NCBI GenBank assembly: GCA_020058355.1
Contig: JAGVEG010000010.1
Coordinates: forward strand, 1-14,590
Origin: Candidatus Berkelbacteria bacterium
GTDB lineage: Bacteria; Patescibacteriota; UBA1384; CAILIB01
DNA length: 14,590 nucleotides
Direction of reading: 5' to 3'
Part shown: in pieces, positions 449 to 14,517 of the stretch
How positions within the stretch are numbered: the first letter of the stretch is position 1
Layout: the number at the start of each line of letters is the position of its first letter
Position numbers and translations under genes: made by a program
The notes under the pieces: model-generated
Database searches by the model: none
What the model saw: only the letters and a program-made list of their open reading frames with translations
What the model was told of the DNA's origin: nothing

Positions 449-479
449 AGCCTAGCGAAAGGTGTGGCCTGAGTATAGC
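449..479 (-). promoter_or_regulatory. Putative alaS promoter elements
   Basis: On the minus strand a TAGGCT hexamer (454-449) ends six bases before the alaS ATG, and a better -10 match, TATACT, lies further upstream (about 477-472). The first would give a leaderless mRNA; the second would give a leader of about 25-30 nt that has no Shine-Dalgarno sequence. No convincing -35 box is seen for either. Which one is used cannot be decided from sequence. Confidence 0.4.
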
Positions 480-492
480 CAGGGTACGTAAA

Positions 493-515
493 TGCCCAGC
501 ACGTGCGGCTGGGCA
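493..515. repeat. 8-bp inverted repeat (hairpin) between a small gene and alaS
   Basis: TGCCCAGC (493-500) and GCTGGGCA (508-515) are perfect complements around a 7-base loop. It lies 15 bases downstream of the minus-strand small gene that ends at 530 and just upstream of the alaS promoter region. On the minus strand only three T residues follow, so as an intrinsic terminator it is weak. It may be a transcription end for the small genes or a protein-binding site. Confidence 0.5.
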
Positions 516-529
516 AATGGGATACGTGA

Positions 530-646
530 CTAAGTCCACTTCTTCTCTTTTTTCAAAGCTTCTGAGACCTTCCTCCCACGCTTCGACCTTCGACCGCGCT
601 TCGTCTTTTGATGAAGCCTATTATATATCCCACCTCGACGCTTCAT
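530..646 (-). CDS. Small, highly basic protein of unknown function (38 aa)
   Basis: Not recognised. The ATG at 646-644 is preceded by GGGAG with about six bases of spacing (AGAAGGGAGTAAAAATG), a good Shine-Dalgarno arrangement. The frame runs 38 codons to a TAG at 532-530. The product starts MKRRGGIYNRLHQKTKRGRR and is mostly Lys, Arg and Gly. That composition resembles small ribosomal or nucleic-acid-binding proteins (the size class of bL34, bTHX or COX24-like peptides), but no family motif matches, so no name is given. It lies between another small gene and alaS, all on the same strand, and could belong to a histidine kinase-small gene-small gene unit. An open frame on the opposite strand (517-804) covers this region but has no ribosome site. 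Existence is likely rather than certain. Confidence 0.5.
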   Translation of the reverse strand: MKRRGGIYNRLHQKTKRGRRSKRGRKVSEALKKEKKWT

Positions 647-697
647 TTTTACTCCCTTCTACTGTAAGAGCCCGGTCGACATTGACTGGGCTGCGAA

Positions 698-826
698 CTA
701 CGACTGAGAAGATTCTTCCTCCCCTGATTCAGGAATGGGGAGATCTATCTCCTCGTCTTCGCCGGGTTCGTTTTTCCGGACAGAAAATCGTTTTCGAATC
801 GTAAGTTTTGACTTAACTTTTGGCAC
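698..826 (-). CDS. Small charged protein of unknown function (42 aa, GTG start)
   Basis: Not recognised. The GTG at 826-824 is preceded by AGGTGG at a spacing of about five bases, a strong Shine-Dalgarno match. The frame runs 42 codons to TAG at 700-698. The protein has two charge halves: a basic N-terminus (MPKVKSKLTIRKRFSVRKNE) and an acidic, Ser/Glu-rich C-terminus (EDEEIDLPIPESGEEESS). This looks like a flexible adaptor or a nucleic-acid-associated peptide, which is inference only. It follows the histidine kinase gene by 84 bases on the same strand and precedes a second small basic gene by 51 bases. The strong start signal and the non-random composition argue for a real gene; the short length keeps confidence moderate. 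Confidence 0.5.
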   Translation of the reverse strand: MPKVKSKLTIRKRFSVRKNEPGEDEEIDLPIPESGEEESSQS

Positions 827-910
827 TTTTTCCACCTATTTGAGATTACCCCTTACGAGGTTAGGAACAAACGTACACCACTTACCAAGAATTGCAACAG
901 CTAGTTGTAC

Positions 911-1750
911 TTATTCCGGAATCCACAAATGCACCACCGTCCCTAGCTTCCCCTGGGTATCAAACTTCAATTGCATGCCAAGGGTATCGGCGAGCTGCTT
1001 GGCCACGAACAATCCGAGACCCATACCTTCATGATCAAAGGTCATAATGTCAGTACCCCTGACAAGACTCGTGCCAATCTGGTCGAGTACTTCGTGCCTG
1101 ATGCCGCCGGCGGCGTCATGTATCTGAAACTCGAATCCGCTCACCCCAACCTCTTGCACAATTGCCACCACTCGCGCACCTTCTGGACTAAACTTCACCG
1201 CATTATCAAGAAGTGCAACTAAGATCTGCTGGGTCAGTCGCTTATCACCACGAAACTCAGTACGCATCTTACAGAGGCTCTTCGCCTCAAGGTGTACGTT
1301 TTTTAGGTTGGCAAAGGAAAGAACCTGGGCCATTGCCGCATCAAGCAGCTCGGGGCCATTGATAACCTGGTTTTGCGTCCCAAGCTTGTCGCTCCGCAGG
1401 CGCATGACCGTCAGAATCTGGTTCACGATGATCGAAAGACGGCGCTGGCCAGTAGTGATTGCGTTCAAAAGGCGCTCTCGCTCACCGGGACCCAGGTTTT
1501 CTGTTTCTTGCAGACGTGAAACCGCTGCCTGAATAGCAGCCGTTGGCGTTAACAGGTAGTGAGAAGCAAGCTGCAGGAAGCTGTTTTGAGCCGTAAGGTA
1601 GTGAGTACGATACCGCTTAATGATAATTGGTGTGACCAGAAACGGAATCGTCGCACCTAAAACAATCCCAACAAATAGCATGAGCCACTCACGCCCGGTG
1701 GCGTAAGAAGCAAAAAATGCACCAATGTCGCTAAGTAGTTGCCCCTGCAT
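911..1750 (-). CDS. Membrane-anchored sensor histidine kinase, orphan
   Basis: Likely autophosphorylates a histidine and passes the phosphate to a response regulator not present in this window. The 279-residue protein has a short N-terminus, one hydrophobic segment at about 22-44, then a HisKA dimerisation helix with candidate phospho-acceptor His64 in ASHYLLTPTAAI. A HATPase_c domain follows: N box LLDNAVKFSPEG (Asn183), a G1-like segment DAAGGI (Asp212) and a clear G2 box GMGLGLFVAKQLA (about 242-254). Two things are odd: the G1 box lacks the first Gly of the usual DxGxG, and no extracytoplasmic sensor domain is visible because there is only one membrane segment. The gene is divergent from the pilM-like gene with 70 bases between start codons. 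TATACT lies six bases before the ATG. Kinase family is secure; catalytic competence is likely but not certain. Confidence 0.88.
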   Translation of the reverse strand: MQGQLLSDIGAFFASYATGREWLMLFVGIVLGATIPFLVTPIIIKRYRTHYLTAQNSFLQLASHYLLTPTAAIQAAVSRLQETENLGPGERERLLNAITTGQRRLSIIVNQILTVMRLRSDKLGTQNQVINGPELLDAAMAQVLSFANLKNVHLEAKSLCKMRTEFRGDKRLTQQILVALLDNAVKFSPEGARVVAIVQEVGVSGFEFQIHDAAGGIRHEVLDQIGTSLVRGTDIMTFDHEGMGLGLFVAKQLADTLGMQLKFDTQGKLGTVVHLWIPE

Positions 1751-1820
1751 TGCTCCAGTATACGCAGGTGGCTGCTGCTTTGCTACACGACAGGAGCTAT
1801 TTACGGTAGGATTACGGTAT
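1751..1820. promoter_or_regulatory. Divergent promoter region (histidine kinase / pilM-like)
   Basis: The 70 bases between the two divergent start codons hold TATACT on the minus strand (1762-1757), six bases before the kinase ATG, and TAGGAT on the plus strand (1807-1812), eight bases before the pilM-like ATG. Both fit -10 hexamers placed so that transcription would begin at or next to the start codon. No good -35 boxes and no Shine-Dalgarno sequences are seen. Confidence 0.45.
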
Positions 1821-3083
1821 ATGGCCCTTTTCTCTCGTAAACCAAAACTCCGTCCCGCCCTGCTCTCACTTGATATCGGGACTGAGTTTGTGAAGGCTCT
1901 CGTCCTGGAAACTCAGGATGATCGCGGCTACGTGATTGGCACCGGCAAGGAACGACAGCGTCTTTCTGATATGCACGGCGGTGCGGTCACTGACATTTCT
2001 GCCGTGATCGAAAACTGTGCACGCGCTCTAGAACTTGCCTTTCACCAATCAGGTCGCACCACCCGACAAACCGTGATCGGCATTGCTGGCGAACTCGTAA
2101 AAGGAACAACTACTGCCACCACCCTGACCCGCAAAGACCGCACCGCCAAGATTACTGAGCATGAACTTCGCGATCTTATCCTCGAGGCACAGAAAGATAT
2201 TCTTGCCCGTTCTCGTAAGGAACTTGCCTGGGAAACTGGTTACCAGGAAGTTGATGTTGAACTGGTAAACTCTGCAGTGGTTGGCGTTACCATTGATGGC
2301 TACCGCGTAACTAACCCAATCGGCTTTACCGGGCGCACCATTGAGATTGCTATCTATACCGCCTATGCGCCGGCCGTTCATCTGGCAGCGATCACCACAA
2401 TTGCCGATGAGCTTGGCCTTGACCTGCTTGCCATTACTCCAGAACCCTATGCCGTAGCTCGTGGGTTTGGTCCTCAAGAAAATGACCTTTCCTGCATCTG
2501 TATCGATGTTGGTGGTGGTACAAGTGACATTGCCGTGATTCGCAATGGTGGCCTGGAAGGCACCAAGATGTTCGCCATTGGTGGCCGTGTGTTTACCCGC
2601 CGCCTTGCCAGTGAGCTTAAGATTACTTTTGAAGAAGCCGAGGAACTGAAACTTGCCTACAGCGAAGGCCGTGTTGATAACGAAGACAAAGCTACCGTGC
2701 GCCGCGCCATTGCTGACGATGTTGAAGTCTGGCAATCAGGCGTTGAGCTTGCCCTTGAGGAGTTCATGCAATCGGAGCGCTTCGCTGATAATCAGCTCTT
2801 CCCTGCCAGTATTCTTCTTTGTGGTGGTGGAAGCCTGCTTCCTGATCTTGCAAAATCACTCAAGGCTACCAAGTGGACCGAAAAACTCCCTTTTGCCCGC
2901 CAGCCCGAGATTGGTTTCATTGAGCCAGGACGTGTCAGCCTGATTATCGACACCACCGAGAGCCTCACGAGCGTGCAAGATGTAACTCCGATGGCACTTG
3001 CCGCCGTGGGCCTTGATCTTGTGGGGTCAGAAGGCACCGCCGACAGCACCATCCAACATCTTTTGCGAGGATTACGCGCATAA
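1821..3083 (+). CDS. PilM/FtsA-like actin-fold ATPase
   Basis: Actin/Hsp70-fold ATPase of the FtsA/PilM group, peripheral to the inner face of the membrane. In the 420-residue protein the phosphate-1 loop is LSLDIGTEFVKAL (Asp18), an FtsA/PilM-type inserted subdomain covers about 85-175 with IGIAGELVKG at its start, phosphate-2 is CIDVGGGTSDIAVI (about 227-240) and the adenosine motif is LLCGGGSLLPDL (about 332-343). The last residues (IQHLLRGLRA) could form a short amphipathic membrane helix as in FtsA. The ATG at 1821 is chosen because the upstream extension (from 1725) overlaps the divergent kinase start and shows no family features. The next gene follows after 14 bases and encodes a membrane protein, which suits the PilM role of recruiting a membrane partner (PilN). 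FtsA itself cannot be excluded, but no ftsZ is nearby. Confidence 0.82.
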   Translation: MALFSRKPKLRPALLSLDIGTEFVKALVLETQDDRGYVIGTGKERQRLSDMHGGAVTDISAVIENCARALELAFHQSGRTTRQTVIGIAGELVKGTTTATTLTRKDRTAKITEHELRDLILEAQKDILARSRKELAWETGYQEVDVELVNSAVVGVTIDGYRVTNPIGFTGRTIEIAIYTAYAPAVHLAAITTIADELGLDLLAITPEPYAVARGFGPQENDLSCICIDVGGGTSDIAVIRNGGLEGTKMFAIGGRVFTRRLASELKITFEEAEELKLAYSEGRVDNEDKATVRRAIADDVEVWQSGVELALEEFMQSERFADNQLFPASILLCGGGSLLPDLAKSLKATKWTEKLPFARQPEIGFIEPGRVSLIIDTTESLTSVQDVTPMALAAVGLDLVGSEGTADSTIQHLLRGLRA

Positions 3084-3091
3084 GGTATAGT
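3063..3091 (+). promoter_or_regulatory. Putative internal promoter before the baseplate-J-like gene
   Basis: TTGCGA (3063-3068), 17 bases, then TATAGT (3086-3091), which ends six bases before the ATG at 3098. The -35 box matches consensus at four of six positions and the -10 at five of six. It lies inside the last codons of the pilM-like gene and would produce a leaderless mRNA. Confidence 0.5.
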
Positions 3092-3097
3092 GCAGCC

Positions 3098-4822
3098 ATG
3101 CAGCAGATTTACGTAGAACTCAGCGACGAAATCACCACCGTTATCGGCCGCATTAAGCATGCCGATGAACGAGACATTGCCCTCCTTGTCCCTAAGGGTG
3201 CTGGCGTTCTGCAAAGTGTAGTTAACCTCAAGCTCGTTGCCAAGGCGGCCAAGGATGCGAAGCGTGATCTCACACTGATCACCACTGATCAGATTGGTCG
3301 CACCCTCGCCACTCAAGTGGGCCTTGCCGCATTCCCCACCCTGGAGGCCATGCAGGATGAAGAGATCGAAGAAGATGGTGTACGTGTGATTGGCGGCGTA
3401 AAGGTTCACCGCTACTTTGACGAGCCTACTCCCGTTGTTGATATCACCAGTGCTGCGCCGATCATTCCTACAGCAATTATTACCGAGGTACCACGTACTG
3501 ATTCTGTTGCTGAAGATTCAGCAACATCTGAAGAGACGCCTCCCGTGGTCACCGAAACGGCCGAGGAAGTTACTCCTCAGGTCGAGGAGTCTACCAATAA
3601 AAAACCGCTCGCTACCAAGGAGGTTGTTCTTGAAGAACCGGTAAAGCCAAAGAAGGGCGAGAAGCCACCCCGTAAGAAGGGTCGATTCTCTTTTAAGAAG
3701 GCGGCGCTCCCACTCGTTATTATTCTGAGTATTCTCGTTGTTTCTGGCGCCACACTTGGCACCCTCTACCTCCCTGGCGTAACCGTTACGGTCACCATCC
3801 CTACACAAGAAAGCACCCTCCAGCTTGATGGCACTGCTCGTGTGGATACTCCAGCCGATGGGAATACTACCATCGCTGAGGCGAAGCGTATTTCGGTAAG
3901 TGCAGAAGGCAAGCTTGATGTGCAGGCAACAGGTAAAAAGGATGTTGGCGAAAAAGCGAAGGGAACCCTTGAGCTCCGCAATTTTGCTGATAGCGACACA
4001 CAAACTCTCCCCGCTGGCTCACGCATTACTTCTGGTGGACGCACCTTCTCAACCGCCCAAGCGGTTTCAGTACCTGGTTTCCGCCGTCAAAATGGTGTTG
4101 ATGTTCCCGGAAGTGCAACCGCGCAGATTATTGCCGAAACCGTCGGTGAAGCCGGTAACCTCGATGAGGAAGTCGCTGCGATCACCAGCCCCAAGACCGT
4201 ACTCAGCGCAAGTAAGGTACGTACTTCGGGTGGCTCAACCCAGGTTGTCACGATTGTCAGTGATGACGATATTACAAATGCCCGCGCGCGCATCAACCAA
4301 GAGCTTGAGAAGCAGCTCACTGAAAAGATTACCACTGACACCAGTAGCAGTAACCTTGTGAGCGACCCTGCAAAAGATAGCGTGCAAGTCTCTGACATGC
4401 AGGAATCCCAACAGAGTGGCGCACAGGTAGACAATTTTACCATTCAAGCAAAGGCTACTCGCGTCCGCGTCGCGGTTGATCTAGTTTCGAGCCGACCCTT
4501 CGTTACTAATAAGATCACCCAGTCACTCTCTCCAGAGCTCGAAATTGCAGGCATTCCTGAAATTGCCATCGAAGACCTCAAGGTTGATGCTGGCGCTGGT
4601 TCCGCAACATTCAAGTTAGGCGCCAAATACCGCAGCCGCCCTCGTATTGATACCGATAAAGTACAGGCGAGCATTCTTGGAAAGAAGCATGATGACGCCA
4701 TTACCATCATTGCCGATGGTATTCCCGGTGCTACCACCAGCATCACGTCGACAACACCATGGTGGCCCAGCAAGCGTATTCCCCTGCAAGCAACCTACGT
4801 ACGCGTAACAGTGAGCGAATAA
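3098..4822 (+). CDS. Single-pass membrane protein with baseplate-J-like extracytoplasmic region
   Basis: Three parts can be seen in the 574 residues. Residues 1-90 form a cytoplasmic alpha/beta domain (for example IALLVPKGAGVLQSVVNLKL and DLTLITTDQIGRTLA). Residues about 105-200 form a Pro/Glu/Lys/Thr-rich low-complexity linker, and about 203-225 form one transmembrane helix (LPLVIILSILVVSGATLGTL). The rest lies outside the membrane and resembles the baseplate-J/gp47-like domain found in many CPR and actinobacterial envelope proteins: GKKDVGEKAKGTLELRN, LPAGSRITSGGRTFSTAQAV and TVGEAGNLDEEVAAI are typical. Phage baseplate origin is a family relation only; no phage genes are near. Pairing with the upstream actin-fold ATPase mirrors PilM with a bitopic membrane partner, so an envelope or pilus-assembly role is inferred. 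The domain call is likely; the function is unknown. Confidence 0.72.
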   Translation: MQQIYVELSDEITTVIGRIKHADERDIALLVPKGAGVLQSVVNLKLVAKAAKDAKRDLTLITTDQIGRTLATQVGLAAFPTLEAMQDEEIEEDGVRVIGGVKVHRYFDEPTPVVDITSAAPIIPTAIITEVPRTDSVAEDSATSEETPPVVTETAEEVTPQVEESTNKKPLATKEVVLEEPVKPKKGEKPPRKKGRFSFKKAALPLVIILSILVVSGATLGTLYLPGVTVTVTIPTQESTLQLDGTARVDTPADGNTTIAEAKRISVSAEGKLDVQATGKKDVGEKAKGTLELRNFADSDTQTLPAGSRITSGGRTFSTAQAVSVPGFRRQNGVDVPGSATAQIIAETVGEAGNLDEEVAAITSPKTVLSASKVRTSGGSTQVVTIVSDDDITNARARINQELEKQLTEKITTDTSSSNLVSDPAKDSVQVSDMQESQQSGAQVDNFTIQAKATRVRVAVDLVSSRPFVTNKITQSLSPELEIAGIPEIAIEDLKVDAGAGSATFKLGAKYRSRPRIDTDKVQASILGKKHDDAITIIADGIPGATTSITSTTPWWPSKRIPLQATYVRVTVSE

Positions 4823-4833
4823 GCTCTGACCTT

Positions 4834-5211
4834 ATGAGCATCCTGGCTCTTGATATTGGTACCCGACACACCGGCGTCGCACTTTCAGAAAGTGGTATTG
4901 CTGGCGAGGTGCTGCCGACCATCCACCACGAAAATGTTGATGAACTCGTCATTGGCGTGCGAAAACTCTGTCTGGACTACGCCGTTACCGCAGTAGTAAT
5001 CGGCATGCCCCTCACCCTTCACGACGAAGAAACCCCGCAGGCACAGCTGGTCCAAAGTGCACAAGCTGCGCTCCAGGCCGGCCTTGCCGACCAAACAATT
5101 GAATGGCATGAAGAGAATGAATTCGGCACTAGTAGCGGCGGTGCTGATGACCATGGCGGGGCAGCTGCAGTAATCCTTCAGAACTTTCTCGATGGCCAAG
5201 TCTCTGCCTAA
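4834..5211 (+). CDS. ruvX: RuvX/YqgF-family putative pre-16S rRNA nuclease, shortened
   Basis: RuvX/YqgF proteins have an RNase H-like fold and act in 16S rRNA 5'-end maturation (and were earlier proposed as Holliday-junction resolvases). The 125-residue protein starts MSILALDIGTRHTGVALSES, with catalytic Asp7 in the family signature. VVIGMPLTLHDEETPQA (about 55-70) matches the family's G-P-L stretch and DDHGGAAAVILQNFL (about 105-119) the final Asp-Ala-Ala-x-x-L-Q motif. Oddly, the usual DERxST-xxA-xxxL segment before this is replaced by a short HEENEFGTSSGG, about ten residues shorter than normal, which removes the consensus DER residues. The ATG at 4834 places the signature at the N-terminus. 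The gene begins 12 bases after the previous one and its end overlaps mltG by 20 bases, implying coupled expression. Confidence 0.85.
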   Translation: MSILALDIGTRHTGVALSESGIAGEVLPTIHHENVDELVIGVRKLCLDYAVTAVVIGMPLTLHDEETPQAQLVQSAQAALQAGLADQTIEWHEENEFGTSSGGADDHGGAAAVILQNFLDGQVSA

Positions 5212-5983
5212 GAACCCTCCGCGTGCGCTCGGGATCTTTTTTGGTGCCGCCTGCGCCATACTTATCCTTGGACTTGCCTCTGGCTTCTATCTCCGATCAG
5301 TTATTCGAAAAGAGCGTGCCGCCCGCTATGCAGCCGCCCAGTCAGTAGTACGACAGGACTATGCCGTAACCATCCCTGAGGGGTGGCGGCGCGAGCAAAT
5401 TGCTCTACAGCTTGAAGAGCAGGGTATCTGCACCGCGGCTTCATTCATACAGGCAAGCGCCACAAAGGAAGGATATCTTTTCCCTGACACCTACCGATTC
5501 TTCAAGGACACTCCGGCACCTGAAGTAGTTCAGCGCATGACCACCACCTTCACCAAACGCACTGAGGGCCTGAATCCCACCCGCGACCAGATTATTCTTG
5601 CCTCGATTGTTGAGCGTGAGTCGGGTGGCGGCAACGACCGCGAACTAATCGCTGGTGTCTATGCTAACCGCATGGCAATTGGCATGGCCCTCCAGGCTGA
5701 TCCTACTATCCAGTATGCCCTTGAGAATACCGGAGCACTAAAGAAAAAAGTAACGGATTACTGGCAACCTATTCTCCGCAGCGACTACGACCGTAACCTC
5801 GCACCTTACAGCACCTATACGGTCGCAGGACTTCCCCCAACCCCAATCGCCAATCCTGGACTCGCCAGTATTAAGGCAGCGATAAACCCGGAGAAGCACG
5901 CCTACTACTACTTCCTCCACACCAAGGACGGAACTATTCTGCCGAGCAAGACGCTAGCAGAACACGAGCGTAAGCAACGATAG
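5192..5983 (+). CDS. mltG: Endolytic murein transglycosylase MltG (YceG family)
   Basis: Cuts nascent peptidoglycan glycan strands at the outer face of the cytoplasmic membrane. The 263 residues show one N-terminal membrane helix (about 12-34, LGIFFGAACAILILGLASGF) and a shortened LysM-like part (VTIPEGWRREQIALQLEEQG, about 59-78). A YceG catalytic domain follows: KEGYLFPDTYRF (92-103), the catalytic-glutamate region ASIVERESGGG (137-147), ADPTIQYAL (169-177) and YSTYTVAGLPPTPIANPGLASIKAAINP (about 206-233). Family members are usually 300-350 residues; the missing length lies mainly between the LysM-like part and the EGYLFPDTY motif. The start overlaps ruvX by 20 bases, and no Shine-Dalgarno sequence is present. 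The link to the elongation machinery downstream (mreB to mrdA) is functional rather than operonic, because an accessory gene pair lies between them. Confidence 0.95.
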   Translation: MAKSLPKNPPRALGIFFGAACAILILGLASGFYLRSVIRKERAARYAAAQSVVRQDYAVTIPEGWRREQIALQLEEQGICTAASFIQASATKEGYLFPDTYRFFKDTPAPEVVQRMTTTFTKRTEGLNPTRDQIILASIVERESGGGNDRELIAGVYANRMAIGMALQADPTIQYALENTGALKKKVTDYWQPILRSDYDRNLAPYSTYTVAGLPPTPIANPGLASIKAAINPEKHAYYYFLHTKDGTILPSKTLAEHERKQR

Positions 5984-6008
5984 CAACACTATAGGACTAT
6001 CATTTTTA

Positions 6009-6052
6009 GATAATGTATGGTACGAAGAAATGCACAAATCAAAAGAAAGGAG
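6009..6052 (+). promoter_or_regulatory. Putative promoter (-10) and Shine-Dalgarno site of the 107-aa gene
   Basis: GATAAT (6009-6014) matches the -10 consensus at five of six positions; no -35 box is convincing. Downstream, AAAGGAG (6046-6052) is a strong Shine-Dalgarno sequence nine bases before GTG at 6062. This site, rather than the ATG at 6017, decides the start, giving a leader of about 40 bases. Confidence 0.5.
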
Positions 6053-6061
6053 ATCAAAGAA

Positions 6062-6385
6062 GTGGACAATAGGTTTATGACCAAAGAAGTGGTGCGGTCA
6101 CTACTAGCACCCCTCAAATTGGATCCGGAACGGTTGAAAGATGTTGTCAATCGAATGGCCTTTATTAGTCTCGACACCAAAAGGCCCACCGATACACTCA
6201 GGGCACACCTGAGTCATTGTGCCGCTATCGACATCGAGGTACAGGTAATCGTTCTTGGGGCAGCCCCATTTACTGATTATCTTAGGATTGAACCACTAAT
6301 CTCAAGATTTGAGAGCCGATTTATACGCCTCCACTCTGGAAGCTACAAGGCAGATCTTGAGTCTCTCATAGCATCCCTACTTTAA
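6062..6385 (+). CDS. Hypothetical protein (107 aa)
   Basis: Not recognised. With the GTG start the product is 107 residues, beginning MDNRFMTKEVVRSLLAPLKL when GTG is read as Met. It looks like a small soluble alpha/beta protein: helical N-terminal half (MTKEVVRSLLAPLKLDPERL), then IDIEVQVIVLGAAPF as a likely buried strand, and a helical C-terminus. No membrane segment or signal peptide is present. An in-frame ATG at 6017 would add 15 basic residues, but the strong AAAGGAG before the GTG favours the shorter form. The gene follows mltG by 78 bases with its own promoter signals, ends in its own terminator, and converges with a kinase-like gene. Together they form a two-gene block inserted between mltG and mreB. 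The sequence is more AT-rich than its neighbours, which suggests an accessory origin. Confidence 0.7.
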   Translation: MDNRFMTKEVVRSLLAPLKLDPERLKDVVNRMAFISLDTKRPTDTLRAHLSHCAAIDIEVQVIVLGAAPFTDYLRIEPLISRFESRFIRLHSGSYKADLESLIASLL

Positions 6386-6406
6386 GTCAGGGATGCTCAT
6401 TTTTTA
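6371..6406 (+). terminator. Intrinsic terminator overlapping the end of the 107-aa gene
   Basis: GCATCCCT (6371-6378) pairs perfectly with AGGGATGC (6389-6396) and is followed by TCATTTTTTATTTT. The left arm is made of coding bases, so the stop codon (6383-6385) sits in the loop. The U-tract is on the plus strand only; for the converging gene the hairpin lacks a T run. Confidence 0.85.
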
Positions 6407-6409
6407 TTT

Positions 6410-7432: not shown

Positions 7433-7488
7433 CTTAAGGCTGCCTACTGTAGATAGGACCAATAATACACGAACCTCTTGAAAAATTC

Positions 7489-7497
7489 TGCTAGGGT
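7489..7497 (+). promoter_or_regulatory. Extended -10 element before mreB
   Basis: TGC followed by TAGGGT (7492-7497), seven bases before the ATG at 7505. The TGN prefix is the extended -10 form, which can work without a -35 box; none is visible at 17 bases. The placement predicts a leaderless mreB mRNA. Confidence 0.45.
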
Positions 7498-7504
7498 GTA
7501 CCAG

Positions 7505-8557: not shown

Positions 8558-8560
8558 CCT

Positions 8561-9355
8561 ATGCGTACCCGTATTATTATTCTCGGTATTCTTGGGGCCT
8601 GTATTCTCTTGTTACGCCAAGACACACCCGTTCGCACCGGCATTCTCACGGCAACCCTCCCCCTCCAGCGAGCCACTGCTCGCAACGTTAATGCGGTAAG
8701 TACTCGCGTTGGCCAACTTCAGCAGATACCGCTGCTCTTTAGTGAACAGGCGCGACTCCAAGCAGCCATTGCTGATTTACAGCTTCAACTACGCGATCGC
8801 TCCTCCCTTGCCGCTGAAAATGCCGCACTGCGAGAAGAGCTCAAGGTTGCGAATCGCCCCGCCACTACCAAGTTGCTCGTTGCACCTATCCGTGCGCGAA
8901 GTTTTCGTACAGAAACCACCGACCAAGGGCGGCAGTTTACCCCCACCCTTACCGTAAGTATTGGGAGAGAGGCCGGTGTGGTTGCGGGCTCAGCAGTGAC
9001 GGTACTTGGTCACTTAATTGGTCGCGTAAGTACTGTTGAGACAAATCAGTCTGAGATTACCTTAATTACCGGTGAGACCAGCCGCATCCAAGTAGAGCTT
9101 GATGGCAGTAAAGAAAAAGGACTCCTGAAGGGAAGTCTGGCTGGCAATCTCTTTATTACCGATGTTACGCAAGGCATCCAGGTCCCCGCCGGTACTCTCG
9201 TACTCACCAGTGGACTTGGTGGCACACTCCCGCAGGGTATTCCCATTGGCACTGTTACGGAAACGATAACCAAGGCTAACGAGCAAACACAGGAACTTGC
9301 CTTAACGAGTCCGATTAATCTTGATCTTCTCGAGTACGTCATGATTGTCCCATGA
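8561..9355 (+). CDS. mreC: Rod shape-determining protein MreC
   Basis: Extracytoplasmic scaffold of the elongasome that links MreB and MreD to PBP2. The 264 residues have an N-terminal membrane helix (about 4-19, RIIILGILGACILLLR) and a coiled coil (about 60-97, with QARLQAAIADLQLQLRDR and ENAALREEL). The two-part beta domain typical of MreC follows, with LTVSIGREAGVVAGSAVTVLGHLIGRVSTV, ITLITGETSRIQVEL and a final GIPIGTVTETIT. Length is in the normal range. It starts three bases after the mreB stop, and its own TGA overlaps the next gene's ATG in an ATGA arrangement. No Shine-Dalgarno sequence is visible, so translation is probably coupled to mreB. Confidence 0.93.
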   Translation: MRTRIIILGILGACILLLRQDTPVRTGILTATLPLQRATARNVNAVSTRVGQLQQIPLLFSEQARLQAAIADLQLQLRDRSSLAAENAALREELKVANRPATTKLLVAPIRARSFRTETTDQGRQFTPTLTVSIGREAGVVAGSAVTVLGHLIGRVSTVETNQSEITLITGETSRIQVELDGSKEKGLLKGSLAGNLFITDVTQGIQVPAGTLVLTSGLGGTLPQGIPIGTVTETITKANEQTQELALTSPINLDLLEYVMIVP

Positions 9356-9795
9356 ATAGTCGTCATGCTCTTCAGTTTCTTATCCTCGCTCTCGGAGTAC
9401 TGATCGCCGGAGCCCTTCCCATTAGCTGGTACTGTGCCGTGCTTGCGCTGTGGATTGGCTGGGTTGCACGACGAACCCCACTTACCCGCATCGGGATCAA
9501 CCCGGGTCACTTTATTGCCTTTGGGCTTGTTCTTCATGAAATTACTACCCAGAACCAACTCTGGCTTGCCACCACTGTCACTGTTTTTGCGCTCATTGTT
9601 CGATTCCTCCTCAGTAAGCTTTCTTCGGCGGTAGCAAGTTTTCAGCACGCCGTGGCCGCACTTGCTGGGTGCCTCGTCCTTATCTGGCTTACCAACCAGT
9701 GGTCACAAACCGCCGTGTGGAGTATTTGTCTCATGACCTGCTTCTTGGGAGCTCGCCTTGCTCTTCGAAGTGATGTAGTCTCGCGGTATGCCTAA
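9352..9795 (+). CDS. mreD: MreD-like integral membrane protein
   Basis: Small polytopic membrane protein of 147 residues, named by position between mreC and PBP2 and by hydropathy, because MreD sequence is poorly conserved. Likely membrane segments are at about 8-35 (FLILALGVLIAGALPI and on), 50-65 (weak), 67-85 (LATTVTVFALIVRFLL region) and 95-140 (LAGCLVLIWL and VWSICLMTCFLGARLAL). It is thought to anchor MreC and MreB in the membrane. The start overlaps mreC by four bases and the stop overlaps mrdA by eight, so translation is tightly coupled. Charged residues are few and confined to loops. The alternative is an unrelated membrane protein in the same slot, but that is less likely. Confidence 0.75.
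   Translation: MNSRHALQFLILALGVLIAGALPISWYCAVLALWIGWVARRTPLTRIGINPGHFIAFGLVLHEITTQNQLWLATTVTVFALIVRFLLSKLSSAVASFQHAVAALAGCLVLIWLTNQWSQTAVWSICLMTCFLGARLALRSDVVSRYA
9776..9781 (+). promoter_or_regulatory. TANNNT hexamer before mrdA
   Basis: TAGTCT (9776-9781) ends six bases before the ATG at 9788, identical in sequence and spacing to the hexamer before the antitoxin at 14519. It lies inside the mreD-like coding region. A chance match is possible since no -35 box is clear. Confidence 0.25.
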
Positions 9796-11746
9796 GCGAT
9801 CCCCCGCAAACGCACCCCTGCAAGCGATTGGCGCTTACCACGACGTAACGCTCCCCCTTACTGAGCTTGAAGTACCCGTGCGCGAACTTCACCCCGAGAC
9901 ACGAGGTCTTCCCGGTCTCTGGATTGCGCTCTTTGTTATTCTCACCCTCCTGACCAGTCGGTCACTCTATCTTCAAGTGCTCACCGGTTCAAAAGGAGCA
10001 CAGGCGGCCGAAGGTAACCGCACCCGCCTCCGCACCACCACCCCTAATCGTGGCTTGATCACTGATAGTAAGGGTACTCCGCTGGCGATGAACTCCCAGC
10101 AGACGGCGCTTGTAGTACTTCCCGCCGAACTTCCCCGTAAAAAAACCGAGCGCGAAGCGGTGTACGAGAAACTCCGCACCATCACCAGTTTTACGAGTGA
10201 GCAGCAGGCCCGTGTTGAGGAAGCGTACAGTAACATCGGTAACCGTATCACCCTTAAGACCCCACTCACCAAGGAGGAGACACTACTCCTCAAAGAACAG
10301 ATTGTTACCCTTCCTGGCGTCGCAGTAGTTGAAGTACCGATTCGTACCTACGTTGATTTTGCCTCCGCGGGCCACCTTCTTGGCTATGTCGCACCTCCCA
10401 GCCGCGATGAGCGCCAGGGACTGATTGACGCAACTCCAACCGGTATCGCTGGTGTTGAAAAGTTCTACAACGAAACCCTCCGCGGGACCAATGGCACCAC
10501 CGCCATCACGGTGGATGCCCGTGGCGTACCACAGGGAGAAAGCACCGTTGTGAGCCCCGTGGTGGAAGGGAAAAACCTCGTACTTGGTATTGATGCTGAC
10601 GTCCAGAAAGTAACTGCCGACGCCCTCAAGCAGCAGCTTGAAATCCGTCAGAAAAACCTGGGTGACCTTCCCAAGCTTGGTGCTACCGCCGTGGTGATTG
10701 ACCCGAGAAACGGCGTAGTCCGGGCCTTGGTTTCCTATCCCGACTTTTCACCCAATCAATTTACGAAGGGCATCTCCCAAGAAGACTACACCACGCTGAG
10801 TACCGACCCTGGTAACCCACTACTAAATCGTGCAACGCAAGCCCTCTTCCCTTCGGGATCGGTTATCAAGCCATTTGTAGCAGCCGTTGCCCTGGAAGCT
10901 GGCGTTATCAATGGCAATACCGCCTTCGCCACCCCAAAAGAGCTCTGTGTTGCTGGCACCTGCTTCCCTGACTGGAAATTCCACCCCGGCGTTACCGATG
11001 CCCGTCGCGCCATCGCTGAATCAAATAATATTTTCTTCTACGCAATTGGCGGTGGTTATGCCGATGCCAATATTAAAGGTCTGGGCATTGAGAAGCTCGC
11101 AAACGGCCTAGCTAAATTTGGTCTCGGTGAGAGTTATCAACCTGATTTCGGCTCGGCAAACGGTGGTGTGATCCCGACTCCTGACTGGAAAAGGAAGCGA
11201 CTTAAGGAATCGTGGTTCCTTGGTGACACGTACAACACCAGTATCGGCCAAGGATACACCCAGACAAACCCCATGCAAATTGCCCTTGCCACCGCTGCCA
11301 TTGCGAATGGAGGCACCCTCTACGAGCCCTCTGCCGGCGAATACTGGCAAGATGCCATAACCAAAGAAAAAACCCGCATAGAGCCCCGCACAAACGGTTC
11401 TGTGGGGGTTTCTGATGGCAACATGCGCGTAATCCGCGAAGGCATGCGCCAAGGCGTCACCTCGGGATCCAGTCGTCTCTTAGACGCGATTCCCGTACCA
11501 ATTGCCGGAAAGACCGGCTCCGCTCAGTTTGGCCCCAATAAAGAGCTCACCCAGTCGTGGTTTACCTCCTACGCACCCTACGACAACCCCGAGTACGTCG
11601 TTACCGTACTAATTGAAGGCGCGGGCGAGGGCTACCTCTACGCCGTCCCCACCGCCGATGCTATTTACCGCAAGCTCTTTAACCAGCCGCCGCCCGCCGT
11701 TCAGACCCAAAGTACTGACGTTGCCGGCTTCGCGGGAGAACGCTAA
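9788..11746 (+). CDS. mrdA: Penicillin-binding protein 2 (peptidoglycan transpeptidase)
   Basis: Class B transpeptidase of the elongasome, acting outside the membrane with a SEDS glycosyltransferase partner. The 652 residues show a cytoplasmic tail (1-42), one membrane helix (about 43-64, GLWIALFVILTLLTSRSLYL) and an N-terminal dimerisation region with RTTTPNRGLITDSKGTPLAMN (about 82-102) and GIAGVEKFYNETLRGTNG (about 219-236). The transpeptidase domain starts with ATAVVIDPRNGVVRALVSYPDF (about 299-320). Its catalytic motifs are all present: SxxK as SGSVIKPF (nucleophile Ser358, Lys361), SxN as ESNN (Ser412, Asn414) and KTG at AGKTGSAQF (575-577). The PBP2-typical IGQGYTQTNPMQIALATAAIANGG motif is also seen. 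RodA, often adjacent, is absent from the window. The start overlaps mreD by eight bases. Confidence 0.96.
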   Translation: MPKRSPANAPLQAIGAYHDVTLPLTELEVPVRELHPETRGLPGLWIALFVILTLLTSRSLYLQVLTGSKGAQAAEGNRTRLRTTTPNRGLITDSKGTPLAMNSQQTALVVLPAELPRKKTEREAVYEKLRTITSFTSEQQARVEEAYSNIGNRITLKTPLTKEETLLLKEQIVTLPGVAVVEVPIRTYVDFASAGHLLGYVAPPSRDERQGLIDATPTGIAGVEKFYNETLRGTNGTTAITVDARGVPQGESTVVSPVVEGKNLVLGIDADVQKVTADALKQQLEIRQKNLGDLPKLGATAVVIDPRNGVVRALVSYPDFSPNQFTKGISQEDYTTLSTDPGNPLLNRATQALFPSGSVIKPFVAAVALEAGVINGNTAFATPKELCVAGTCFPDWKFHPGVTDARRAIAESNNIFFYAIGGGYADANIKGLGIEKLANGLAKFGLGESYQPDFGSANGGVIPTPDWKRKRLKESWFLGDTYNTSIGQGYTQTNPMQIALATAAIANGGTLYEPSAGEYWQDAITKEKTRIEPRTNGSVGVSDGNMRVIREGMRQGVTSGSSRLLDAIPVPIAGKTGSAQFGPNKELTQSWFTSYAPYDNPEYVVTVLIEGAGEGYLYAVPTADAIYRKLFNQPPPAVQTQSTDVAGFAGER

Positions 11747-12060
11747 TGGCCTGGGACAAGATCAGTGCCCCGCTCCTTGCCAGCGCTCGTCGGCATGGAC
11801 TCTATGGCGAGATGGTTGGCGCACAGCTTTGTGCTGCCGCTCAATCCATTCTTCCCACCGGAGCAACCGCCGTCTCGGTAAAAGATGGTGTATTGAAGGT
11901 GGGTATGGGAATCCCCCAGCAACTACCGGTTATGACGTTGGAGCGACAGCTGTTGGCAATTGTGAATAAGGAGGCAGAGCGCCTACGTGTTCCGGGGGTT
12001 ACGAGGGTGCAGCGGGTATTGAAGCAAAAAGAAAACCCCGGATTATCCGGGGTTGGGTAA
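11746..12060 (+). CDS. DciA-like (DUF721) protein
   Basis: Small protein of 104 residues resembling the DUF721/DciA family, whose studied members help load the replicative helicase DnaB. Supporting features are the basic N-terminal helix (ISAPLLASARRHGLYGEMVG), a beta strand pair around VSVKDGVLKVGMG (about 43-54), and the family-like TLERQLLAIVNKEAERL helix (about 64-80) followed by VPGVTRVQRVL. The ATG shares one base with the mrdA stop codon (TAATG), so it is translationally coupled; GGGAG nine bases upstream could serve as a ribosome site. The C-terminal residues KENPGLSGVG are encoded by a terminator hairpin belonging to the opposite-strand gene, so they are probably not under protein-level selection. 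It is the last gene of the mre operon. Confidence 0.6.
   Translation: MAWDKISAPLLASARRHGLYGEMVGAQLCAAAQSILPTGATAVSVKDGVLKVGMGIPQQLPVMTLERQLLAIVNKEAERLRVPGVTRVQRVLKQKENPGLSGVG
12026..12054 (-). terminator. Intrinsic terminator of the minus-strand gene, inside the dciA-like 3' end
   Basis: AACCCCGGA (12034-12042) and TCCGGGGTT (12046-12054) form a perfect 9-bp stem with a TTA loop. Read on the minus strand it is followed by TTCTTTTTG, a good U-tract. On the plus strand the hairpin is followed by GGGTAAAAC and would be a poor terminator. It therefore belongs to the gene at 12063-13169. Confidence 0.85.
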
Positions 12061-12062
12061 AA

Positions 12063-13169
12063 CTACCCGAAAATGGTTTCTCGCTGCTTTTTCCGCCAAT
12101 CACTCATGGGGTGATGAATTATTCTCACTACTCCAGGAATCTTCTGTAGCTCACTCCTACTAAGATAGGCGGTCACATCTTCCCATTGAATATCGCCATT
12201 CAGTGGCAAGATATAGGTTGCCTCACCATAGTTCGGAGAAGCAAGCACCACGTACCCCATCTCTGAGAAGTAGGCGACTACGAGACCGTCCTGCCAAGAA
12301 CCCCTCCGGATACTTGATGGGACGATCCATTTATCAGGGCCAAGGCTCCTCAAGAACTCAAGACGCACGATCTGGTCATTTTGACCAGCGCGGTCACCTG
12401 ACTCTGCAAGCCGAATTCTCAGTTGTGATAGAACCTCATGGACCTGTTCAGATGTAAGGGTTTCTGAAGTAAGCTTACCAAAGAGGCCAGTAATCCTGAG
12501 TTTTTCGATTGCTACCCACTCCTGGTCACGTTTTGTGACATCACGGGCTCGTGTGTCTCGTGCGTGATCAAGTACTTCTTGAACTATTCTCTTGTGAGTC
12601 TCCTCTACTAAATCAGTCGTATCTCTTCCGGCGCGAGAAAGCAGGCACCTTCGATACGGTAACCATAGAGTAAGTGGTACGATATCCTCTGTCTCTATGA
12701 CAACCATCTCTTGTGACTGCGCACTCACACGAACATACATTGTCAGCCTGCCTCGCTCTGCATAGGTTATGAGATCAGTAAGCGTAAGTATGCCGAAGGC
12801 AAAGTACTCACAAAGAGCATTTCTCCTACCTTTTTCTAGAAAAAGACGGTACACTTCACCACCATGTGTCTCGAACTGCTTAAGCCACTGCGAGTCAAGT
12901 GACAGCGATAGCATGTATGGAGCAAGCTCATTGAGAATGTCTGGGTCCTCAATACGGAAGAGGAATTCCCCAGCATTCAGGTAGATGCTTCCATCACTAC
13001 TACAAGACGCTAATCGGAATGCTGCACTATACAAACCAACATACCCATCAAGCCTAGCAACCTCTAAGTCAGTTGGTAGCGGCCACCCCTCTTCACTAAT
13101 TCTCGGCAGCGCAACCACCAAAACCTGAGTTTGTAGCTGTAAACTCCCCGCCAACATAACTCTTCTCAT
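12063..13169 (-). CDS. Hypothetical protein (368 aa)
   Basis: Not recognised. The ATG at 13169 is preceded by GAGGAG (13181-13176) at good spacing, which decides the start over upstream in-frame positions. The 368 residues have no signal peptide and no convincing membrane helix. N-terminal 1-60 are strand-rich (LQLQTQVLVVALPRI, GYVGLYSAAFRLAS); 185-225 are strongly charged and helical (DTTDLVEETHKRIVQEVLDHARDTRARD), and 230-252 may be a helix-turn-helix-sized segment (GKLTSETLTSEQVHEVLSQL). The C-terminus is a strand-rich region (GLVVAYFSEMGYVVLASP) ending in a basic tail. The gene has its own terminator and a -35-like TTGACA upstream, and is divergent from the next gene with 117 bases between starts. 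Codon use and base composition are less GC-rich than the mre genes. Confidence 0.65.
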   Translation of the reverse strand: MRRVMLAGSLQLQTQVLVVALPRISEEGWPLPTDLEVARLDGYVGLYSAAFRLASCSSDGSIYLNAGEFLFRIEDPDILNELAPYMLSLSLDSQWLKQFETHGGEVYRLFLEKGRRNALCEYFAFGILTLTDLITYAERGRLTMYVRVSAQSQEMVVIETEDIVPLTLWLPYRRCLLSRAGRDTTDLVEETHKRIVQEVLDHARDTRARDVTKRDQEWVAIEKLRITGLFGKLTSETLTSEQVHEVLSQLRIRLAESGDRAGQNDQIVRLEFLRSLGPDKWIVPSSIRRGSWQDGLVVAYFSEMGYVVLASPNYGEATYILPLNGDIQWEDVTAYLSRSELQKIPGVVRIIHHPMSDWRKKQRETIFG

Positions 13170-13175
13170 TTCACT

Positions 13176-13229
13176 CTCCTCACACTTAGTATTACTACCC
13201 TCACTATCGTGGGCTTGTGATTTTGTCAA
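13176..13229 (-). promoter_or_regulatory. Promoter and Shine-Dalgarno site of the 368-aa gene
   Basis: On the minus strand TTGACA (13229-13224) is a perfect -35 box. A -10 is less clear: GATAGT at 15 bases or TAGTGA at 17 bases. GAGGAG (13181-13176) is six to seven bases before the ATG at 13169, with GTGAAATG context. On the plus strand the same place reads TTGTCA, so the promoters of the two divergent genes may overlap. Confidence 0.5.
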
Positions 13230-13286
13230 GTTATGGTAGAAGGTGAGAGATACAGAAAAATCATCCCCGAAAGGAAACTCATCACA

Positions 13287-14429
13287 ATGAGTCAATCACC
13301 CAAAAAACAAGATGATGCAGGTCAGGTAGAGATCGTTATAATCGATACTGGAGTTCCAGAAGACTACCAGCAAATCTTTACCGATTCTGGAACAACAATT
13401 GGTCATGAGGTCAAAAAGCATATTAGCAACCTACTACGCACCCTGATCACCGAAGGAAAGCAGCCTGTACATGCGGTGGAGCTAACATTTGCGAGGATAT
13501 CCACAGCTGAAGAACTGACTGGACAACTTGCAACTGTAATCTTTGAGTCTGCTGGAGAAAGACCGGTGGGCAAGCTCATCGGTGTTCCACTCACAAGAAC
13601 TGATACTATGGGTACTTCTATTGTCCCAATTATCTTGGAACTTTCTCTTGTGTGCAAAAAACCTTATCCAAACCACGACTTCCTCAGGCGTAAGGGGGCG
13701 AATCTACTGATGGCAGGCGCTCCTATAGTGATGCCAACACCCACTGAAGAGGATAATCCACCACGAAATGTAGACCCTTGGTGGAATAAGCTTACAGAGC
13801 TGGATAGTCACTTTGAGAGAAGTCATGACGGCTTTGTTTCGACAAATGAATTCAAGGGCAATGAATGGTCGGAGGTACCACTGGAAATAAGGGGGAATTA
13901 TGTAATCTTCCCAGGAAGTCGCCTCCTGATCATTGCTCGTCGCTCGCGCTTTACGCCTCGCCTTACCAAGCGGTGCTACGAGCTCTGCACGGCGCTCCTA
14001 AAACAGGGTGACCTCACCTCTGAGGAAATCGTTCAGTTATTCCGAACTAGCGGCATCAGCAACGTTCAAGATGTTATTACCAAACTGACTGAACAGGGCA
14101 TTATCAGCTATACAAATGGCGTAGCCCACTTGCAGATGCGGAACTTTGAATTCTTCCAGGTCACAAAGATCACCGAGAATACCGTAGGTGGTAATCTCCA
14201 ATCAATCGGCACCCCTGACTCTGAACATGCTGGACCAACTCCAGAGGCGGTTACTGCAGCATTGGCAGTCCTGGAACAGGCACGAAAACAAGTTAGTGAA
14301 CTTCAGGCACTCCACGACCGAAGAGACGCACTACAAGCGGAACTCGCGGAAGTTGAGCGACAGATAGCGGAAGCAACTCCTGGCACGGAGAGGATTCGTC
14401 AGCTCTTGGAGCCAACGAATAACCTCTAA
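13287..14429 (+). CDS. Hypothetical protein with possible winged-helix segment and C-terminal coiled coil (380 aa)
   Basis: Not recognised. The ATG at 13287 is chosen because AAGGAA (13271-13276) lies about ten bases upstream; an in-frame ATG at 13233 has no such site. Residues 1-200 form an alpha/beta region without a known motif (VEIVIIDTGVPEDYQQIF, LIGVPLTRTDTMGTSIVPII). Residues about 205-282 look like a winged helix: GSRLLIIARRSRFTPRLTKR, then YELCTALLKQGDLTSEEIVQ, a second helix NVQDVITKLTEQG, and a hairpin IISYTNGVAHL. About 320-365 form a coiled coil (LEQARKQVSELQALHDRRDA). A DNA-binding or scaffold role is inference. Base composition shifts near 13930, where the second half becomes more GC-rich, so the gene may be a mosaic. 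It is divergent from the 368-aa gene and followed by a terminator. Confidence 0.65.
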   Translation: MSQSPKKQDDAGQVEIVIIDTGVPEDYQQIFTDSGTTIGHEVKKHISNLLRTLITEGKQPVHAVELTFARISTAEELTGQLATVIFESAGERPVGKLIGVPLTRTDTMGTSIVPIILELSLVCKKPYPNHDFLRRKGANLLMAGAPIVMPTPTEEDNPPRNVDPWWNKLTELDSHFERSHDGFVSTNEFKGNEWSEVPLEIRGNYVIFPGSRLLIIARRSRFTPRLTKRCYELCTALLKQGDLTSEEIVQLFRTSGISNVQDVITKLTEQGIISYTNGVAHLQMRNFEFFQVTKITENTVGGNLQSIGTPDSEHAGPTPEAVTAALAVLEQARKQVSELQALHDRRDALQAELAEVERQIAEATPGTERIRQLLEPTNNL

Positions 14430-14444
14430 GTTGACCCCACTCTT

Positions 14445-14476
14445 GCCCACACCACCCTTGGTGTGGGCATATTTTT
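14445..14476 (+). terminator. Intrinsic terminator after the 380-aa gene
   Basis: GCCCACACC (14445-14453) and GGTGTGGGC (14460-14468) form a perfect 9-bp stem with a 6-base loop, followed by ATATTTTTATC. It ends transcription of the 380-aa gene 15 bases after its stop and isolates the antitoxin promoter downstream. Confidence 0.9.
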
Positions 14477-14483
14477 ATCTTAC

Positions 14484-14517
14484 TTTACAGACTGGTCTAT
14501 TTAGACTAGTCTAAATA
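14484..14517 (+). promoter_or_regulatory. Antitoxin promoter with overlapping palindromic operator
   Basis: A -35-like TTTACA (14484-14489), 17 bases, and TAGTCT (14507-14512), which ends six bases before the ATG at 14519. Overlapping the -10 is a perfect 20-bp palindrome at 14498-14517 with core TTTAGACTAGTCTAAA. A second, partly symmetric site AGACTGGTCT begins at 14489, giving two AGACYRGTCT sites 14 bp apart. This is the layout expected for autorepression by a Phd-type antitoxin or its toxin complex. There is no Shine-Dalgarno sequence. Confidence 0.75.

Follow-up and report, generated by a model that had tools for sequence, protein, structure and literature searches.

Leaderless genes are established in bacteria (PMC3160421, PMC12340547). 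In Deinococcus radiodurans, a TANNNT hexamer lies some 6–7 bp before the open reading frame (ORF) in nearly a third of genes, and in Deinococcus its bases 1, 2 and 6 are irreplaceable, with the motif acting as a promoter -10 element in reporters (PMC12340547). About 20% of actinobacterial genes are leaderless (Zheng 2011, PMC3160421), and a broader prediction attributes leaderlessness in up to 40% of transcripts to 21.6% of bacterial species (PMC9581028); genomes of the candidate phyla radiation (CPR) may already be covered by that prediction. In Flavobacterium johnsoniae (Bacteroidetes), 87% of predicted transcripts have leaders longer than 10 nt (PMC6847099). The subject of the present analysis is a set of TANNNT hexamers ahead of start codons in a 14,590-nucleotide stretch of a Candidatus Berkelbacteria genome (hereafter the window), and their counterparts across its assembly. 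Much of the diversity of bacteria belongs to the CPR, or Patescibacteria, nearly all of which are uncultured. The window is contig 42 of its own assembly, referred to as G000 (803,169 bases in 115 contigs, 84.6% complete, GC 49.6%).

The hexamers are read here as -10 elements of ordinary sigma70-type promoters, presumably recognised by the sigma factor RpoD, at which RNA polymerase would start at, or within 1–2 bases of, the A of the ATG. The resulting mRNAs would be leaderless, with an AUG at the 5' end from which translation begins independently of any Shine-Dalgarno (SD) sequence. We assign a probability of about 0.88 to this reading as a general mode in G000.

This arrangement resembles Deinococcus-Thermus in the TANNNT near the start, and Thermus thermophilus (150 kb of pTT27) was positive in the same pipeline with 8/64 starts. 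It differs in that Deinococcus-Thermus also shows a GGAG ribosome-binding motif, whereas SD sequences are at background in G000, which belongs to another phylum and is a 0.8-Mb assembly of 49.6% GC. With Actinobacteria it shares a TAnnnT signal and a substantial minority of genes that would be leaderless. Actinobacteria also use SD sequences, and RNA 5' ends have reportedly been mapped in Mycobacterium tuberculosis, whereas G000 is known from sequence alone. The SD-less Bacteroidetes combine a retained anti-SD in 16S rRNA (seen here in kin) with absence of SD in mRNA (PMC6847099, PMC9976891). Transcripts of F. johnsoniae are mostly leadered, whereas predicted leaderless promoters are prominent in G000. 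The Bacteroidetes type of SD-less translation is marked by leaders on most mRNAs and by sequestration of the 16S tail by bS21, bS18 and bS6.

The mechanism is therefore not new. Among the papers listed by searches of an open library, none dealt with leaderless genes in Patescibacteria by its title or the opening of its abstract, and we regard G000 as a strong new case in that phylum on an unusual SD-poor background. The new elements are how widespread predicted leaderless starts are within one CPR family, an almost complete lack of SD sequences and a second, SD-free junction pattern.

TANNNT hexamers at a fixed distance from start codons

The preliminary description listed seven window starts preceded by TANNNT at 6–8 bases, two of them with a -35-like box. 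All seven hexamers and spacings are present, and both boxes (TTGCGA, TTTACA) lie exactly 17 bp upstream of their -10 (Table 1). Such a recurrence is indeed unlikely by chance, with p 1.3e-6 for at least 7 of 14 starts at spacings 6–8 (3/64 per start) and p 1.8e-7 at the measured genome background of 3.2–3.5%. The pattern had been spotted by eye, which biases these values, and the genome-wide test therefore weighs more.

Genes were called in G000 with a hexamer-codon model that uses codon statistics only and is blind to upstream sequence. It yielded 680 genes (ATG 566, GTG 76, TTG 38), and 547 of the 566 ATG starts, those with at least 45 bases upstream and no N, were tested. TANNNT stands exactly 6 bases before 116 of the 547 (21.2%), against a mean of 12.5 in 200 dinucleotide shuffles (sd 3.8, max 23; z 27), and against 1.08% of 2876 in-frame and 0.85% of 5382 out-of-frame internal ATGs. 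The enrichment, whose absence the preliminary description had named as a refutation, is about 9-fold over shuffles and about 20-fold over in-frame internal ATGs. Spacing 7 is also enriched (32/547, shuffle mean 12.3, z 6.2); spacings 8 and 9, with 17/547 each (z 1.4 and 1.6), are not significantly so, and no remaining spacing within 0–15 is enriched. Among 639 genes with 80 bases upstream, the spacing-6 motif precedes 116/536 ATG, 7/69 GTG and 2/34 TTG starts. A scan free of gene calls, for TANNNT-N5-Y-ATG, gave 260 occurrences at spacing 6 and 77–170 at each of the remaining spacings between 1 and 15; when TTG 17 bp upstream was required, the counts were 21 and 0–7.

That the signal is spurious, produced by base composition, by the way starts were called or by selective reading, has in its favour only that the window list was chosen by eye. 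The enrichment is seen even with a motif-blind start caller, and an artefact is rejected by the shuffles, the internal ATGs, the gene-call-free scan and Escherichia coli K-12, which was negative in the same pipeline (1/122 starts in 150 kb). Such an explanation is hardly credible.

Kin were drawn from the same family (G001–G004, MreB match 69–70%), the same order (G005) and another family of the same class (G024); the nearest clearly named relatives by MreB are Patescibacteria such as Kerfeldbacteria, at 61%. Spacing-6 rates within the family reach 16–29% (G004 36/125, G002 10/63, G003 4/22), and G001 and G005, with very little DNA, gave 1/7 and 1/6. Beyond the family but still within its class or order, 4-kb mreB loci have the motif ahead of 2/72 starts. 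Comparison pools drawn from 65 of 80 mreB loci gave 8/91 (Patescibacteria-titled plus one 'bacterium'), 7/236 (Verrucomicrobia-like), 2/137 (Omnitrophota) and 1/193 (Desulfobacteria/Deltaproteobacteria-titled). The trait is strong in the family of G000 and uneven elsewhere. Crude counts of the pattern also exceed those of its reversed form in G000 (261 v 152), G003 (224 v 128) and G004 (145 v 55).

Across the phylum, the ratio of pattern counts at spacings 6 and 9 has a median of 1.28, with 183/192 genomes above 1 and G000 third of the 192, itself included (2.46). From 39 of the 80 mreB loci, the median is 1.17 for nine further genomes (eight Patescibacteria-titled, one 'bacterium') and 1.12 for 30 differently titled ones, Verrucomicrobia reaching 1.74. 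The outgroup ratios overlap, so this crude measure does not show the trait to be typical of, or special to, the phylum, and no phylum-wide property is claimed. Ratios of 2.1–2.6 occur in G071, G089 and G106 (family f42) and of 2.05–2.26 in G079, G010, G229 and G157; strong signatures of the leaderless kind may recur across several Patescibacteria families.

Promoter marks, gene position and competing readings

A -10 hexamer at -12 to -7 places the transcription start point at the A of the ATG, by textbook geometry. Outside the hexamer, the sites carry promoter marks that played no part in their selection. The 116 sites read T 48%, T 41%, G 43% at -35 to -33 and T 41%, G 46% at -15/-14. TTG at -35 occurs in 14/116 (12.1%), compared with 6/420 other starts (p 3e-6) and 1/74 chance TANNNT-6-ATG sites within genes (p 0.01). 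TG at -15/-14, the extended -10, is found in 31/116 (26.7%) as against 33/420 (p 4e-7) and 5/74, and a pyrimidine at -1 in 106/116 (91%) as against 299/420 (71%) and 31/74 (42%). TTGACA-like boxes peak at a 17-bp spacer (15/116), with 1–5 at other spacers from 12 to 23.

The sites also lean towards the heads of transcription units, which carry a spacing-6 site in 70/258 cases (27%), against 20/177 operon-internal genes (11%; p 6e-5). By position, over 536 starts, the counts are 31/116 for divergent genes, 39/142 for same-strand gaps of at least 40, 11/39 for gaps of 15–39, 20/177 for gaps below 15 and 15/62 where the context is unknown. Twelve of the 20 operon-internal sites are the stop codon of the upstream gene at -12 (gap 9), and a reading of the operon-internal sites as internal promoters was rejected; the gap-9 junctions do not behave as promoters collectively, although individual ones may be.

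The leading rival places the signal in translation: UA at -12/-11 would be read by the ribosome in a leadered mRNA, in the manner of the A-rich or Kozak-like contexts of SD-less Bacteroidetes, and the likeness to a -10 would be secondary. It would account for SD cores being near background, for motif-less starts being A-rich at -11 and -10 (43% and 40%), and for TAA or TAG standing frequently at exactly -12 at operon junctions, mostly without T-7 and without TG at -15, where UA is thus placed without a promoter. The hexamers of head genes, however, come with the -35 at 17 bp and the TGn, and no stop codon of a called upstream gene forms any of the 70 head sites. A signal acting in translation alone would leave the -35, the extended -10, the -1 pyrimidine and the head bias unexplained, and we regard it as improbable.

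A real -10 might alternatively leave leaders of 1–4 nt, or start transcription inside the ORF with a downstream start codon in use. This would suit the enrichment at spacing 7 and the mreB sites of kin at 7–8. Three of the four same-family genomes have such a site (G003 TACGGT at 8, G002 TACCCT at 8, G004 TACCCT at 7), scored by a script that preferred, among nearby starts, one with a motif, a preference that mattered here for G004 only (2 codons upstream). Set against it are the sharp maximum at 6 and the MreB frames, which begin at the same Met in three of the four same-family genomes. Standard start-site geometry combines that spacing with A at +1 preceded by a pyrimidine. This alternative accordingly seems very unlikely, rather less likely than the ribosome-read signal.

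For the other window genes, scored with the same preference among starts, the G002 orthologue of the gene at 3098 has TACAAT at 8 (1/1) and that of pilM has TACTAT at 9, seen by eye outside the scored spacings of 5–8 (1/1). The alaS orthologue in G024 has TAAATT at 6. No site was found at the ruvX orthologue in G002 (0/1), and none was scored at mreB in G005.

The leaderless reading proposed in the preliminary description is thus favoured by enrichment at one exact spacing, by promoter marks that were not selected for and by the head bias. Several observations weigh the other way. Only 12% of sites have TTG exactly at -35, and a pyrimidine at -1 is frequent at motif-less starts too (71%). Among kin, G002 shows no excess over the reversed pattern (339 v 398) and G001 little (179 v 151), no mreB site was scored in G001, and the mrdA orthologues of G002 and G004 have no site (0/2). 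The genome encodes IF3 and an S1 protein of four repeats, so that a ribosome specialised for leaderless mRNA is not obvious. Of RpoD itself only the N-terminal part, cut at a contig end, was recovered (L063; tblastn with E. coli RpoD), and a PF04545 search of G000 did not find it. Separately, L024:4560-5141 encodes a sigma factor with region 2 and region 4 domains of the extracytoplasmic function (ECF) type.

The leaderless fraction was taken from excess counts, since expectation-maximisation with a free matrix proved untrustworthy: it gave 0.59 for genes that are not operon-internal, and 400 internal-ATG controls collapsed to 1.0. At spacings 6 and 7 together, about 132/547 genes stand above the background set by internal ATGs. 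Predicted leaderless starts would then amount to about 24% of the genes that begin with ATG, and to roughly one in three heads of transcription units.

The genes concerned are of many kinds, and the preliminary description, which had limited the architecture to core genes, was too narrow in scope. A Pfam scan covered 20 of the 70 head-site genes, all among the 26 with the highest promoter scores, and 16 matched, among them class-I tRNA synthetase, ClpP, UvrB, LepA, RadC, a trypsin-PDZ protease, two ABC ATPases, a GNAT acetyltransferase, a photolyase, two N-methylation pilin motifs and, under the curated cut-off, two antitoxin-like proteins.

Shine-Dalgarno sequences and stop-start junctions

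Four-base SD cores precede 68/543 starts in G000 (12.5%) against 12.1% of internal ATGs, which is at background, and in G004 the figures are 11.2% and 15.8%. The same measure gives 53.3% v 5.2% for E. coli and, for Thermus, 45.3% v 26.4%; SD sequences are also evident in 4-kb loci from other families of the class (27.8% v 13.7%). A few strong ones persist in G000, where AGGAGG is found at 10/547 starts v 7/2876 internal ATGs.

A 16S gene was not matched in the G000 assembly, which is 84.6% complete. The anti-SD CCTCC is present in 13/15 kin 16S tails and is kept in same-family G002, G003 and G004; the tail was not placeable in G005 and G057. The GGATCA just before the anti-SD is usually invariant. 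At this position G004 reads GGACAA (L252), G002 GGACCA (L253), one of two G003 copies GGAATA (L255) and G006 GGAACA (L257), while GGATCA is intact in the nine other kin tails, one of them the second G003 copy, a possible contaminant.

Within operons a different SD-free pattern appears. Among the same-strand pairs with ATG starts in G000, 31 of the 110 with gaps of 0–20 have a gap of exactly 9 nt (32 pairs in a second gene set), compared with 2 pairs at gap 8 and 6 at 10; the next most frequent gaps are 5 (13 pairs) and 1 (12), and 31 pairs have a -4 overlap. The stop codons at gap 9 are TAA (24) and TAG (7), never TGA. SD cores are found at 0/31 of these junctions v 13/89 at the remaining gaps of 0–30. 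A stands at -6 in 15/31, and a pyrimidine at -5 and at -1 in 29/31 each. T-7 is present in 11/31 and TG at -15 in 0/31; the junctions mostly lack the one and wholly lack the other, and therefore are not promoters as a class.

Of 10 downstream genes tested among the 31, 9 matched Pfam, as L24, L5, L6, S5, L11, S18, L2, a GroEL-type chaperonin and RpoC. In the ribosomal operon at L038:468-3764, five called junctions have gap 9 and one -1; ahead of the ATG at 1594, following an uncalled stretch, a TAA again stands 9 nt away. Orthologues of this operon gave no tblastn match in the sampled kin DNA. Kin have gap 9 in 7/42 pairs (G004 4/24, G002 and G003 together 3/18), and in 6 of the 7 the stop completes a TANNNT (by eye). 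Elsewhere it occurs in 5/136 pairs of the pooled other loci, a pool that includes 9 kb of G001, and in 2/10 of Thermus; close pairs of E. coli (4/26) are spread over gaps 9–11.

A terminating ribosome that holds the stop codon of such a junction in its A site would have its leading edge approximately at the AUG; a hand-over, or coupling, of ribosomes at gap 9 is speculation. In other prokaryotes, spacings of -4 and -1 nt dominate, with a small peak near +10 that leaves room for an SD sequence (PMC10666635, PMC12548453). G000 likewise has -4 and -1 spacings in common with these, and differs in its sharp +9 peak with TAA or TAG only and no SD core; no description of such a peak was found in the available parts of the operon-spacing literature surveyed.

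Taken together, the family may have largely given up SD-guided initiation in favour of two SD-free routes, namely leaderless promoters at unit heads and a fixed UAA/UAG-9 nt-AUG hand-over within operons. Stop and -10 may even be interconvertible, because in kin the stop so often completes TANNNT. This broader proposal is tentative, and we give it somewhat less than even odds. The results suggest a lineage that begins protein synthesis unlike textbook bacteria. If a quarter of genes are leaderless and hardly any use SD sequences, gene starts predicted by SD models would be unreliable in such lineages, and expression constructs would need a leaderless or coupled design. The family is also suited to studying how starts are picked by a ribosome whose kin have an intact anti-SD, and SD-free coupling at the 9-nt junction could be tested directly with simple reporters.

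Features of the window

Pfam confirmed alaS, the histidine kinase, the FtsA/PilM-like gene, ruvX, mltG (YceG), mreB and mreC in the window, and a penicillin-binding transpeptidase was taken as mrdA. The positions of the candidate promoter elements are collected in Table 1.

Table 1. Candidate promoter elements and associated features of the window
Feature	Position	Strand	Remarks
alaS -10, TAGGCT	449..454	-	6 bases ahead of ATG 442; alaS by PF01411, E 5e-49
Histidine kinase -10, TATACT	1757..1762	-	6 bases ahead of ATG 1750; HATPase_c and HisKA
FtsA/PilM-like gene -10, TAGGAT	1807..1812	+	8 bases ahead of ATG 1821; FtsA 7e-14, PilM_2 1.5e-6
-35-like box, TTGCGA	3063..3068	+	17 bp ahead of the -10 of the 3098 gene
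3098 gene -10, TATAGT	3086..3091	+	6 bases ahead of ATG 3098; 574-amino-acid protein
TAAGCT, probably not a promoter	4820..4825	+	8 bases ahead of ruvX ATG 4834; TAA is the upstream stop
mreB -10, TAGGGT	7492..7497	+	7 bases ahead of ATG 7505
mrdA -10, TAGTCT	9776..9781	+	6 bases ahead of ATG 9788, within the end of mreD; penicillin-binding protein transpeptidase
-35-like box, TTTACA	14484..14489	+	17 bp ahead of the antitoxin-like gene -10
Perfect 20-bp palindrome	14498..14517	+	spans the antitoxin-like gene -10; probable operator
Antitoxin-like gene -10, TAGTCT	14507..14512	+	6 bases ahead of ATG 14519

Some details of the preliminary description need adjusting. Its statement that the seven starts lack an SD sequence is not strictly correct for the kinase, which has GGAG beginning at -6 within the spacer, at a distance too short for a canonical SD; at the pilM-like site AGGA is contained in its own TAGGAT. 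The pilM-like protein has its best score against FtsA. The protein of the 3098 gene, labelled baseplate-J-like, had no Pfam match at 0.001. The hexamer ahead of ruvX was considered as an eighth site and rejected, its TAA being the stop codon of the upstream gene.

The antitoxin-like gene is truncated at the contig end, after 24 codons. The palindrome over its -10 is likely an autorepressor operator. An inverted repeat was also seen by eye around the predicted leaderless promoter of a Phd/YefM-like gene (below the Pfam cut-off) at L118:10076-10330.

On the minus strand at 12063-13169, an in-frame ATG at 13169 lies 12 bases upstream of the called start at 13157 and has GAGGAG 6 nt ahead of it. 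With this SD-type start, unlike those of its neighbours, the gene is possibly an acquired one.

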